From Nanobdellota archaeon (lineage in GTDB: Archaea; Nanobdellota; Nanobdellia; Parvarchaeales; Parvarchaeaceae): DNA of 58,269 nt. This document shows positions 20,867-25,311 of the stretch, one piece after another. Position numbers and translations under genes: made by a program. How positions within the stretch are numbered: the first letter of the stretch is position 1; each line of letters starts with the position of its first letter. The notes below the pieces were generated by a model. That model worked only from the letters and a program-made list of their open reading frames with translations, was not told the origin of the DNA and ran no database searches. The stretch lies in NCBI GenBank assembly GCA_021818905.1, contig JAKASS010000005.1, positions 1-58,269 on the forward strand, written 5' to 3'.

Positions 20867-21041
20867 TCGAATATTTAATTCTCATTAGCGTAAAGTTACT
20901 AATTCGATACGCAAGTGTCTTAATCTGTAATAGTCCTTCTAGACTAAGAGAATTGAACATAAAATTATTGTATCTTAGTATTTCTTTAAAAATTGCAACG
21001 TTAAAACTTTTAAATTGTCTTTAGGTTAGTATAGTAGTAAT

Positions 21042-21114
21042 AGCCCCGTAGTCTAGTGGCCAAGGACAACTGGCTCTGAACCAGTGAACATCGGTCCAAA
21101 TCCGATCGGGGCTA
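21042..21114 (+). tRNA. tRNA-Gln (CUG anticodon)
   Basis: A full cloverleaf can be drawn. The acceptor stem is AGCCCCG with CGGGGCT and discriminator A at 21114. The anticodon stem is ACTGG/CCAGT with loop CTCTGAA, giving anticodon CTG. The T-arm is ATCGG/CCGAT with TCCAAAT in the loop. There is no intron and no encoded CCA. A TATA-like CTTTTAAATT lies about 30 bases upstream. Confidence 0.92.
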
Positions 21115-21189
21115 AATTTTGTTGGGGGATATAGGTAGGAACCAAAAAGTGGAATTAAATTTATGCCCAAATATTATAGAATTTAGAGC

Positions 21190-21454: not shown

Positions 21455-21939
21455 TTAAGTGTTACTAAACTCAACATATGAATTACTATTCGAACAAGTT
21501 GCACCACTTGCACCCGTTGAAAGTAGAACCGAGTAAGTTCCAGTAGGTAATGACAAGTTTTGTGTAGCGTATAAGCAGTACAGAGGATAGCTTTTACTAT
21601 TATTGGCTGAAAAATCATAAGAATAGCCTACATTATTTGTAAGATTCACAGCGATAGCCATTAATTCTCCGGTGCTCCAAGACATGCTTAGATTACCGCC
21701 CGGCCACTTACAAGACCCGGATACCTGTGAATTTGGTGAGGTAGACTGTAAATTAAGAGTACTACATAAATTAGTTATATTTGTATTAGAACTATTTTTT
21801 GTCGTAGACAGATTAGTTGTCGGTTGGCTACTTAGAACAATTACTATAACAATAACGAGACAAACCCCGATTATAAGAATAAATTTAGGACTTAGGCACT
21901 GTTTAAGGCCGTTCCTTCTATCTTTTCCGTTTCTCCCAT
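21455..21939 (-). CDS. Membrane-anchored extracellular protein with unclear start
   Basis: The minus-strand frame ends in TAA at 21455-21457. It encodes a basic N-terminal stretch, then LKQCLSPKFILIIGVCLVIV (one membrane anchor), a Ser/Thr/Asn-rich linker with several N-glycosylation sequons, and a domain with GGNLSMSWSTGELMAIAVN and SLPTGTYSVLLSTGAS. The frame is open up to 21994, but no ATG/GTG/TTG precedes the anchor in frame. The only ATG there (21939) is in another frame and ends after 15 codons. Either an unusual start is used or a one-base indel has damaged the N-terminus. Confidence 0.5.
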
Positions 21940-21955
21940 ACTCTTTTTGCCTCCG

Positions 21956-21986
21956 AAAGCGACGACTTTTGACTTGTCGTCGCTTT
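21956..21986. promoter_or_regulatory. Perfect 11-bp hairpin between divergent surface-protein genes
   Basis: AAAGCGACGAC (21956-21966) pairs with GTCGTCGCTTT (21976-21986) around a 9-base loop. It is followed by a short T-run on the plus strand. It lies just upstream of the TATA box of the gene at 22023 and at the head of the minus-strand frame. It could be a protein-binding palindrome, or a terminator of a plus-strand transcript entering the region. Confidence 0.45.
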
Positions 21987-22002
21987 TCCGTAAACTATTT
22001 AT

Positions 22003-22020
22003 TCTCTCTCTCTCTCTCTC
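22003..22020 (+). repeat. (TC)9 dinucleotide tract just before the start of the beta-propeller gene
   Basis: Nine TC units run from 22003 to 22020 and end 2 bases before the ATG at 22023. A TATA-like ACTATTTATT (about 21994-22003) directly precedes the tract, so the repeat fills the spacer in which transcription should begin. Confidence 0.9.
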
Positions 22021-22022
22021 TT

Positions 22023-23573
22023 ATGCTCCACGATCATAAGTCGCAATCAGCATTAGAATATCTCATGACCTATGGCTGGGCCATACTGATCATAGTGATA
22101 GTAGCGGCAGTCCTTGATGCAATGGGCATCTTCAATCCCGCTGCGGCGGCAAACGTCCCATTCACAGTGACAGGCACGTCAGGAACGGTGATAGCCGCAG
22201 GTCAGGGGAATGCGACGCAGATATATCTTACGATATACGATCAAACGGGTTATCCTGTGACAATAGACTATCTATCCTTCGAATCGGGCGGAGCGACCTA
22301 TTCTGCATTCGGCTGTGCCGGCTTCCCGCCTTACCAGCTTGTGGCAGGCCAAAGCACCATATGTGCCATCCGTTCATCCCCGAACGGCAACTTCCGGAGT
22401 CCGCTAGGAGGGCAGGTGTCCATAACATACCTGGAAGACAACGGCGTACCGGGACAGAACTTCATGACGACAAGCTCGATAAGGATGTCATTGACGACCT
22501 CTAAGCTGGACAACAACGGCGAGAACCTCTCTTTTCCTTTAATGACTACGTTCACAGAATCAGGTCTTCCTTCCGGTACATCGTGGAATGTCACGTATGA
22601 CGGAGTGACTAACCACTCTGCCACAAATACAATAACGTTTTTGGCATTGGCAGACCCATTTTCGTACACGATATACAATCAACTAATTTCAAGTACTGCG
22701 GGTTACTGTTATCTTAAAATGTATTCCGTGCCAGTTCTATCTTCAGGCTCGGCTAATGGCGGTTCTTCCATACCGGTCACGTTCACAAATTCTTCCGGGT
22801 GTACGCTCGCATACGTTGCAAATTATGGTGCAAATACCACTTCCGTCATCAATACCTCTACCAATACAGTCATAGGCGGCCCGATAACCGTCGGTTCCCA
22901 TCCGGATGGTGTAGCCATAACCCCCAATGGTAAATTTGCATACGTTACAAATTTTTATGTAAATGCAGTTTCCGTCATCAATACCTCTTCCAATACGGTC
23001 ATAGCCACCATAACCGTAAGTGCTAACCCGAATGGTGTAGCCATAACCCCCAATGGTAAATTTGCATACGTTACGAATCAGAATGCAAATGCAGTTTCCG
23101 TCATCAATACCTCTTCCAATACGGTCATAGCCACCATAACCGTAAGTGCTAACCCGAATGGTGTAGCCATAACCCCCAATGGTAAATTTGCATACGTTAC
23201 GAATCAGAATGCAAATGCAGTTTCCGTCATCAATACCTCTTCCAATACGGTCATAGCCACCATAACCGTCGGTTCCCATCCGTTTGGCGTAGCCATAACC
23301 CCCAATGGTAAATTTGCATACGTTACGAATCAGAATGCAAATGCAGTTTCCGTCATCAATACCTCTTCCAATACGGTCATAGCCACCATAACCGTAGGTG
23401 CTTATCCAGAGGGCATAGCCATAACCCCCAATGGTAAATTCGTATACGTTGTAGATTATAATACAAATACAGTTACTGTCATCAATACTACTTCCAATAT
23501 GGCCATAGGCCCCCTGATAGCCGTAGGTAATAGCCCGATTGACATGTCACTTTCTTCCGTAGATTCAGTTTGA
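22023..23573 (+). CDS. Surface protein: class III signal peptide plus YVTN beta-propeller
   Basis: The 516-residue protein begins MLHDHKSQSALEYLMTYGWA, the class III (type IV pilin-like) signal common in DPANN archaea. Cleavage is expected before the QSALEYL segment, leaving the hydrophobic helix for pilus-like assembly or membrane anchoring. A pilin-like domain with GQGNATQIYL and a link domain (FTESGLPSGTSWNVTYDG) follow. Then five to six 42-residue YVTN repeats (AITPNGKFAYVTN, SVINTSSNTVIATITV) form a beta-propeller. Longer upstream starts are unlikely because they would translate the (TC)n tract and the hairpin. It is probably an adhesin or S-layer-associated protein. Confidence 0.85.
   Translation: MLHDHKSQSALEYLMTYGWAILIIVIVAAVLDAMGIFNPAAAANVPFTVTGTSGTVIAAGQGNATQIYLTIYDQTGYPVTIDYLSFESGGATYSAFGCAGFPPYQLVAGQSTICAIRSSPNGNFRSPLGGQVSITYLEDNGVPGQNFMTTSSIRMSLTTSKLDNNGENLSFPLMTTFTESGLPSGTSWNVTYDGVTNHSATNTITFLALADPFSYTIYNQLISSTAGYCYLKMYSVPVLSSGSANGGSSIPVTFTNSSGCTLAYVANYGANTTSVINTSTNTVIGGPITVGSHPDGVAITPNGKFAYVTNFYVNAVSVINTSSNTVIATITVSANPNGVAITPNGKFAYVTNQNANAVSVINTSSNTVIATITVSANPNGVAITPNGKFAYVTNQNANAVSVINTSSNTVIATITVGSHPFGVAITPNGKFAYVTNQNANAVSVINTSSNTVIATITVGAYPEGIAITPNGKFVYVVDYNTNTVTVINTTSNMAIGPLIAVGNSPIDMSLSSVDSV
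22917..23500 (+). repeat. Tandem 126-bp repeats encoding YVTN blades
   Basis: The sequence CCCCCAATGGTAAATTTGCA recurs at about 22921, 23047, 23173 and 23299, with a variant at 23425: a strict 126-bp period (42 codons). The central units are nearly identical in DNA, not only in protein, indicating recent duplication or gene conversion. Confidence 0.9.
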
Positions 23574-24003
23574 TTACTCGATAAACAGAGTCATGGTAAC
23601 AGTTATAGTAGATCTATAACTTATTAGCTTCATTTTGCATCCTTTATATGAATCTTTGAGTTTTCAAATGGTAAAGGTGGAATATCTCCGTTCTTAGAAA
23701 GGGTTATTTCCAGTTTCTTTGGAACAAATTGTTTCTGTTCTTTTTCTTCTATCTTTAGCATTTTTTGTTCTATTTTGGGGGAGTTCTATTTTATTCTAAT
23801 TTACAACTGGTTCCATTCTATTTTAATTCTGTTTAATTCTATTTTGAGCTGTTTTTATAGGCTCTAATTTCTATTTTTACTCTATCTGATTCTATTTTAT
23901 TCTAATTTTTCTTGGATTAGAATCGGTTCCATTCTATTTTGAATCTGTTTTTATTCTGTTTAATTCTATTTTATTCTAATTTATTCTGTTTTTAAGGCTT
24001 TGT
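23574..24003. repeat. Non-coding stretch with a T-rich imperfect repeat tract
   Basis: No gene is seen here. From about 23765 to 23995 the plus strand is built from recurring TTCTATTTT, TTCTAATTT and TTCTGTTTA words. Two longer related blocks each contain GGTTCCATTCTATTTT (near 23811 and 23925). Neither strand is open. There are no spacer-like unique inserts as in CRISPR. Confidence 0.6.
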
Positions 24004-24365: not shown

Positions 24366-25305
24366 GGCACTGTTACCAAATACGGTTGGTGAATCTTAAT
24401 TACACCGGCTGCCATCTTTATTTAAGGTGAAAATGGAAAACCGATGTAATTATTGTAAAAGTAGCAGCGCAGCCTTAAATGGTTTTAGAAAGACGAAAAA
24501 CAGGGGAAACGTACAGCGATACCGTTGTACGTCCTGTGGCAAGACGTTCGTAGAAAACATCGGTTTCAGGTGGAAACACCATGCGAAACGCACCATGATC
24601 GGCAGCATCCACCTGCATCTGATGGGATCGTCGCTTAGGGAAGCCGCGAAGTTCCTTTCCGTGTCCGTTGATTCCGTATTCAGGTGATTCCTGGAATATG
24701 GAAAGATGATCGTAGGATACGTAAAGGACATCAAGCCTTTCAGGACGGAAAGGCTTCACATGGACGAGATGTCCGTAAAGATGCGCGGGAAGTCCTTTTA
24801 CGTATGGGCTTCCATCTGCAGGGAAAGCAGGTTTGCCACGGCTTTCCTCGCTTCCGACAGGACGAAGAAGAACGCCAGACTGCTGATGAAAGAGTCCCCG
24901 CCCGCCATCAACATCACTACGGATGGCGCATTTGGATACGGCTCCGTCATAAGGGAAGCCAAGGGATCGTGGTATTACCACAATCGTTATCATCGCTGCG
25001 CTTCCTTCGAGGACAAGAAGGACAATGATCCCATGGAAAGACGGGACAATCCCTATCGTGCTAATACTCACGAGCTTCGCGGCTTCAAGAAGCTCGCCAC
25101 TGGAGACCTGTTCGTAAGGTTGTGGACGTTCTACTATGACTTCATAAGGCCGCATTCTTCCCTCGGCAGGACCCCTGCTGAAGAAGCGGGACTTGTAAGG
25201 TATTACAAAGGCGATGATTGGTTAGGACGGTGGGAGCGATGGGTCGAGAGAGCTTCGCTCTCTTTTTATTTGGCTTATATATCAACCGTATTTAGTAACA
25301 GTGCC
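24366..25305 (+). mobile_element. IS6-family-like insertion sequence (940 bp)
   Basis: Inverted repeats of 23 bp with one mismatch bound the element: GGCACTGTTACCAAATACGG at 24366 and its complement ending at 25305. The GGCACTGTT end is characteristic of the IS6/IS26 group. The expected 8-bp target duplication is absent (AACTCCTT on the left, TTATAAAT on the right). This suggests replicon fusion and recombination or an adjacent deletion, as IS6 elements cause. Confidence 0.85.
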
Positions 25306-25311
25306 TTATAA
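24427..25311 (+). pseudogene. IS6-type transposase with an in-frame TGA
   Basis: The N-terminal part has a zinc ribbon (CNYCKSS, YRCTSCGKTF) and ends at TGA 24685-24687 after SVSVDSVFR. The same frame continues FLEYGKMIVGYVKDIKPF and holds the DDE domain: HMDEMSVKMRGKSFYVW, ITTDGAFGY and the Glu region MERRDN. Then come THELRGFKKL and FIRPHSSLGRTPAEEAGL. A single G-to-A change (TGG to TGA) would account for the stop. The C-terminus reads through the right inverted repeat and ends at 25311, just outside the element. Confidence 0.8.

Follow-up and report, generated by a model that had tools for sequence, protein, structure and literature searches.

A TC tract in the promoter spacer of a pilin-type archaeal surface gene: a candidate repeat-length expression switch, probably derived from the left end of an IS110-family element

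Phase variation driven by tandem repeats is, to our knowledge, known almost only in bacteria. In the hif fimbrial genes of Haemophilus influenzae, the number of TA repeats reportedly sets promoter spacing. The Piv invertase of the Moraxella type IV pilin is said to act on a conserved site close to the start of the pilin gene, joining one promoter and N-terminus to different C-terminal parts, while IS492 of Pseudoalteromonas atlantica, a member of the IS110 family, reportedly causes on/off phase variation by insertion and precise excision. A 2025 review that anticipates future surveys of archaea for repeat-driven phase variation cites a variable repeat in the hif promoter region (PMC11868660), and PMC11208160 cites Piv as an IS110-family recombinase. 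IS110 and IS1111 elements with a bridge RNA or seekRNA have a recombinase with DEDD and Transposase_20 domains, a long non-coding end with a two-loop RNA fold, and a fixed target in a conserved coding site, with junctions that have a common GT (PMC11208160, PMC11187229).

The locus described here lies in a window of 58,269 nucleotides, the whole stretch of DNA that was analyzed, from a Nanobdellota archaeon, a tiny archaeon of the symbiont type (contig JAKASS010000005.1). A (TC)9 tract (22003 to 22020, plus strand) fills the spacer between a TATA-like box, TATTTAT (21996 to 22002, plus strand, at -27 relative to the ATG), and the start codon of a surface gene, giving the order GTAAACTATTTAT-(TC)9-TT-ATG. 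A sequence-only reading had let the tract begin where a TATA-like sequence ends and stop 2 bases before the ATG. Both placements are correct: ACTATTTATT ends at 22003, from which the tract runs, and TT separates position 22020 from the ATG at 22023 to 22025. The repeat therefore sits between core promoter (TATTTAT at -27) and start codon, the arrangement typical of SSRs that act on promoter spacing. In dinucleotide-preserving shuffles of the window, 0 exact matches to the tract are expected by chance, and 0.05 when 3 mismatches are allowed; the tract is also the sole run of at least six TC units in its own genome of 944,665 bases. As in hif, a dinucleotide repeat is found in the promoter of a surface filament gene, where the number of units alters spacing. 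The hif repeat, however, concerns the bacterial -35/-10 spacing, whereas the TC tract concerns TATA-to-start spacing in an archaeal, probably leaderless gene and is associated with a mobile element. A tRNA-Gln (CTG) gene is located just upstream of the locus, at 21041 to 21115.

The gene itself (22023 to 23573, plus strand) encodes a surface protein of 516 amino acids with a pilin-type (class III) signal and a YVTN beta-propeller, in agreement with what had been read from the sequence alone. The protein opens with the prepilin-type signal KSQSALEYLMTYGWAILIIVIVAAVL, its propeller repeats match TIGR02276 (206 bits), and the blades are encoded by a 126-bp tandem repeat (22809 to 23508, plus strand; 5.5 copies, 89% matches). 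The class III label is motif-based, as none of the Pfam signal models gave a match: MLHDHKS-QSALEYLMTYGWAILIIVIVAAVL shows a short basic n-region, cleavage before Q, E at +5, and a hydrophobic stretch. Degenerate TTCTATTTTA repeats are found 3' of the gene (23784 to 23992), followed at 24427 to 25311 by a transposase gene with broken frames, which resembles an IS240-type DDE transposase found at another locus.

What the sequence-only reading missed is the transposon origin of the promoter. By homology, positions 21937 to 22069 form the left end of an IS110-type element, extending from the transposase start codon to an insertion junction at ..CTCATGAC|CTATGG. This left end is homologous to contigs C5 (90%) and C24 (88%) of the same genome, and to contig C26 of a congeneric genome, G009 (81%). 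The window retains no more of the element than this left end and a 5' stub of its transposase gene (ATGGGAGAAACGGAAAAGA.., MGETEK..; 21909 to 21939, minus strand); the remainder was lost here, and no match to its right end was found on the window contig. An 11-bp inverted repeat, AAAGCGACGAC-9-GTCGTCGCTTT (21956 to 21986), is kept in left ends of the element, and the S-Q-S codons of the signal peptide (GTCGCAATCA, 22040 to 22049) are at the same time the element's subterminal repeat (TGATTGCG..). Beyond the stub lies another secreted-type ORF; on the minus strand at 21455 to 21994, an open frame with an export-signal-like stretch (LSPKFILIIGVCLVIVIVIVLSS) and no clear start codon of its own is fused out of frame to the stub.

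When the promoter and signal region were used as a DNA query, three further partial copies were found in the same genome. On C5 and C24, the promoter diverges from a partly decayed IS110-type transposase gene (PF01548), and the copy on C6 is similar. The sequence that C5, C24, and C12 have in common runs up to ..CTTGAC|CTATG(C/T)ACAAGCG, after which unrelated DNA follows. Since the shared sequence of these copies breaks off at one and the same base, with unrelated DNA beyond it, the class III gene's 5' end must be counted as part of the element's left end. Elsewhere in this genome, a right-end remnant on C17 is joined at this same bond to the decayed 5' end of a class III gene (ATGAATCCCGATAAAAAGTCCTAG..CATGATGAC), and C22 holds a similar but weaker case, with a right-end remnant beside a decayed class III 5' end. 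We are therefore highly confident that the promoter, the tract, and the first ~15 codons correspond to the left end of an IS110-family element. We also considered whether every class III promoter in the genus might descend from the element; weak similarity to half of the repeat was all that was seen, in some promoters of G006 and G016.

An intact copy of the element was found in a sister species, Nanoarchaeota archaeon MAS3.bin90 (G009:C26, JAJZNK010000013.1), on a contig with a coverage of only 1.7x. It spans ~1.34 kb and encodes a 327-aa transposase (PF01548, E 1.7e-15; PF02371, E 6.8e-23), with the DEDD transposase and C-terminal Transposase_20 domains of the IS110 family, of which the window holds the 5' stub only. 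A scan of a contig collection for the element gave matches limited to the G009 contig and one distant bacterial relative. The element lies antisense within a class III gene. One flank, ATGCGAACC..GAGTACATGATGAC, is the 5' end of that gene with its own TATA box, and the other, CTATGGTTGGGC.., is the rest of it; joined, the two give the open frame MRTNQQ..SALEYMMTYGWAIL, and the element's own start joined to the same 3' part gives the open frame MRLHHKSQSALEYLMTYGWAIL. As read from the DNA, insertion in G009 is thus shown to swap the promoter and N-terminus of the gene, in frame. We infer the same swap in the window, where the rest of the element is gone. C48, another contig of G009, has a left end that matches over 143 bases at 99%; it diverges ~12 bases past the junction, where the contig ends, which fits a second class III target.

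Like Piv, the element has an IS110-family recombinase whose conserved site lies close to the start of a pilin-type gene, and one promoter and N-terminus come to be joined to different C-terminal parts; Piv, however, inverts a chromosomal segment, whereas here an inserted element brings its own promoter. With IS492 it would share the link between an IS110-family element and variable expression of a surface trait, but IS492 involves neither promoter delivery nor a tandem repeat.

The right end of the element is a long non-coding stretch, of the kind that encodes a structured guide RNA in IS110-family elements. Two stem-loops are predicted in it (z -3.8 in G009 and -3.4 in C24), and an Rfam search of this RNA gave no match. 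The 3' strand of the internal loop of the first stem-loop reads CCGUAGGU in G009 (target CCATAGGT) and GCAUAGGU in C24 (target GCATAGGT). With two complete elements only, the left guide matches its own target at 7/8 and 8/8 positions and the right guide at 6/8 and 7/8. The 5' strand of the internal loop matches the right target more poorly, and the target of the own element scores above that of the other; overall, the loops match their own targets best or equal best, with matches that differ by few bases between the two elements. IS1111 elements are defined by subterminal inverted repeats of 11-13 bp that lie 7 bp and 3 bp from the ends (PMC11187229). The position of the RNA at the right end agrees with this group, but the repeat found here is shorter, 8-9 bp, and its distances from the ends are ~20 bp and 9 bp; the element was not assigned to IS1111.

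The recombinase domains, the non-coding end with its predicted two-loop fold, the fixed target in a conserved coding site, and the common GT at the junctions are all shared with bridge RNA and seekRNA elements (PMC11208160, PMC11187229). The element differs from these in its left end, where an outward promoter, a start codon, and 15 codons take the place of the target gene's 5' end, and in that codons of the signal peptide double as the element's subterminal repeat. The open-access literature, the coverage of which was incomplete, yielded no IS110 element whose left end is the 5' end of a gene, which is weak support for novelty.

The switch proposed by the sequence-only reading calls for length variation of the tract among reads or strains, and length variation was found between related genomes. 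Among 28 congeneric genomes, runs of at least seven TC units occur in five places only, with 7 to 11 units: the window (9), G010:C18 (8), G014:C8 (11), and G009:C26 and G009:C48 (7 each). In all five, a TATTTATT-type box precedes the tract, and the ATG of a gene with a KSQSALEY-type signal follows it. Other copies of the tract have 4, 7, 9, and 11 units. In G010:C18 and G014:C8, the surface gene occupies the same place between the same neighbors. Their upstream alignment of 4,142 columns contains a single gap, of 6 bases, which falls exactly in the TC tract (8 versus 11 units); the 1.1 kb adjoining the tract has zero mismatches, and 15 occur over the 2,565 columns that precede the tract. As this is the only indel, next to 1.1 kb free of mismatches, the tract appears to change much faster than its surroundings, and we hold with good confidence that its length changes fast, although the two genomes belong to two species and the comparison is one between species rather than a population measurement. 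Recent exchange between the species could be another cause of the near-identical upstream kilobases. The two proteins differ greatly downstream of the signal peptide, yet 98% identity returns in the flank that follows; this pattern is suggestive of a variable surface gene. The gene bodies are very different between flanks that are 92-100% identical, as under diversifying exchange.

A pattern search yielded 46 promoters of the window type. Where the longest TC run had at most three units, the TATTTAT-to-ATG distance was 29 or 31 (25 in two promoters, one of them with a shifted start codon), whereas runs of at least four units had distances of 19, 21, 21, 27, 27, 27, 31, and 37. A permutation test on the spacing variance of 30 interrupted and 8 pure promoters gave a value of 0.0009, with shared ancestry ignored. 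All distances were odd, as length changes in 2-base steps would have it. Pure runs of at least four units were present in 8 of 11 promoters with similarity to the left end versus 0 of ~35 others (Fisher 6e-7, uncorrected for ancestry). Within the window's own genome, element copies without a surface gene have four units and a spacing of 21, compared with nine units and a spacing of 27 for the window copy, which sits on an intact gene. Pure tracts together with this spread in spacing support slippage that alters promoter spacing.

Slippage of this kind could also be neutral. The TC-rich spacer of the left end would then lengthen and shorten as a microsatellite that hardly alters promoter output, with archaeal start-site choice and short leaders tolerating the changes, and the length difference between species could be drift. 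The spacers of sister class III promoters are pyrimidine-rich but interrupted, which would make the composition ancestral, and spacings of 27 to 37, the two extremes included, are present on apparently intact genes; the promoter may tolerate both 27 and 37. The confinement of interrupted promoters to 29 or 31, with 25 also seen, suggests a constraint on spacing, however, and every run of at least seven units in the 28 genomes is found in one context. We take neutral drift seriously as a possibility without favoring it.

An effect on expression also depends on where the transcript starts. Should transcription begin further upstream, for example before the inverted repeat, the tract would be ordinary 5' UTR; the inverted repeat could then belong to a leader or operator, and a frame does run open from upstream through the tract. 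That frame, however, is antisense to the transposase start and the neighboring secreted ORF, for which reason the tract was also rejected as coding sequence, and the TATA box is located downstream of the inverted repeat. In the 36 genes of the window that have free DNA in front of them, A+T content is highest at -29 to -24, and -27 to -31 is the commonest starting range of the best TATA-like 8-mers (15 of 36, counted by eye from a list), as leaderless archaeal genes would lead one to expect. The start of TATTTAT at -27 fits this cluster, which supports the leaderless-type geometry that the first reading had assumed and makes an upstream start improbable. On the minus strand between 21909 and 22002, the TATA-like motif reads AATAAATAGT toward the transposase stub, the ATG of which is preceded by a GGAGG motif, and the TATA region may be shared and used by the element in both directions. 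That the tract mainly serves the element in this way, as a spacer or upstream part of a bidirectional promoter with only incidental effects on the surface gene, seems very improbable despite these motifs, as element copies in the same genome have four units only, and the tracts of 7-11 units sit on left ends joined to class III genes, the window copy lacking a transposase.

The reading we prefer takes the tract as a slippery promoter spacer. It would lie in an outward-facing archaeal promoter within the left end of an IS110-family element, which would have a non-coding guide-type RNA at its right end and target the codons GAC|CTATGG (M-T-Y-G-W), which are conserved in pilin-type surface genes. 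Inserted there, the left end would bring a TATA box, the TC tract, and an ATG with 15 codons that continue in the target's frame, replacing the promoter and N-terminus rather than breaking the gene, as seen in G009. The pure TC run gains and loses units by slippage, as the differences between species and between copies show, and each unit changes the distance from TATA box to ATG by 2 bases, a displacement visible in the sequence. In archaeal transcription, the TATA box sets the start of the mRNA. In a leaderless mRNA, each unit would hence also displace the ATG from the transcript start, and the number of units would decide whether the ATG falls at, just inside, or just outside the 5' end of the transcript. 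In what is the weakest step, the output of surface protein would thus vary, between cells.

We consider the chances of this whole explanation, in which a slippery spacer alters surface-gene output, to be evenly balanced, and those of an effect of tract length on expression as such to fall just short of that. The switch proposed by the sequence-only reading is plausible, in that TC length varies (8 versus 11) and the ATG moves 2 nt per unit; a strict on/off switch is not implied, since (TC)9, 10, and 11 give spacings of 27, 29, and 31, all within the natural range. Graded or fine tuning is as likely as on/off control. More tentatively, two levels of control are possible, in which guide-RNA-directed insertion would select, from the many pilin-type surface genes that these archaea have, the one to receive the promoter, and TC slippage would set its output through TATA-to-start spacing.

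Beyond the genus, 371 genomes of the phylum were searched for runs of at least seven TC units within 10 bases of an ATG. These occurred in four genomes only, which is not above a reversed control, and there is no general enrichment. A scan for a TATA box with at least five units found five genomes versus three in the control, which is not convincing. In G352:C6, from another family of the phylum, TTTATATATGG-(TC)8-TTGT-ATG at a distance of 31 precedes a gene for a secreted Thr/Asn-repeat protein lacking a class III signal; it looks like an independent case of the same design, among counts that do not exceed the control. G133:C19 contains TTTATATA, then a long TC tract, then an ATG with a short ORF only. 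A scan of IMG/VR with the promoter pattern gave two matches, both to unrelated phage-type ATPase genes, and these were discarded. No tandem-repeat promoter switch of an archaeon was found in the open-access literature, incompletely covered, which lends weak support to novelty.

The locus may be an expression switch set by repeat length, and, together with a homologous locus of variable length in sister species, it offers a concrete archaeal candidate for phase variation. Among insertion sequences, the element is unusual in that it would replace the promoter and first 15 codons of its target in frame, with no gene breakage, which may explain both its survival in conserved surface genes and their rewiring. 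DPANN archaea depend on contact with host cells, and variable expression of surface proteins could therefore bear on host choice in these organisms.
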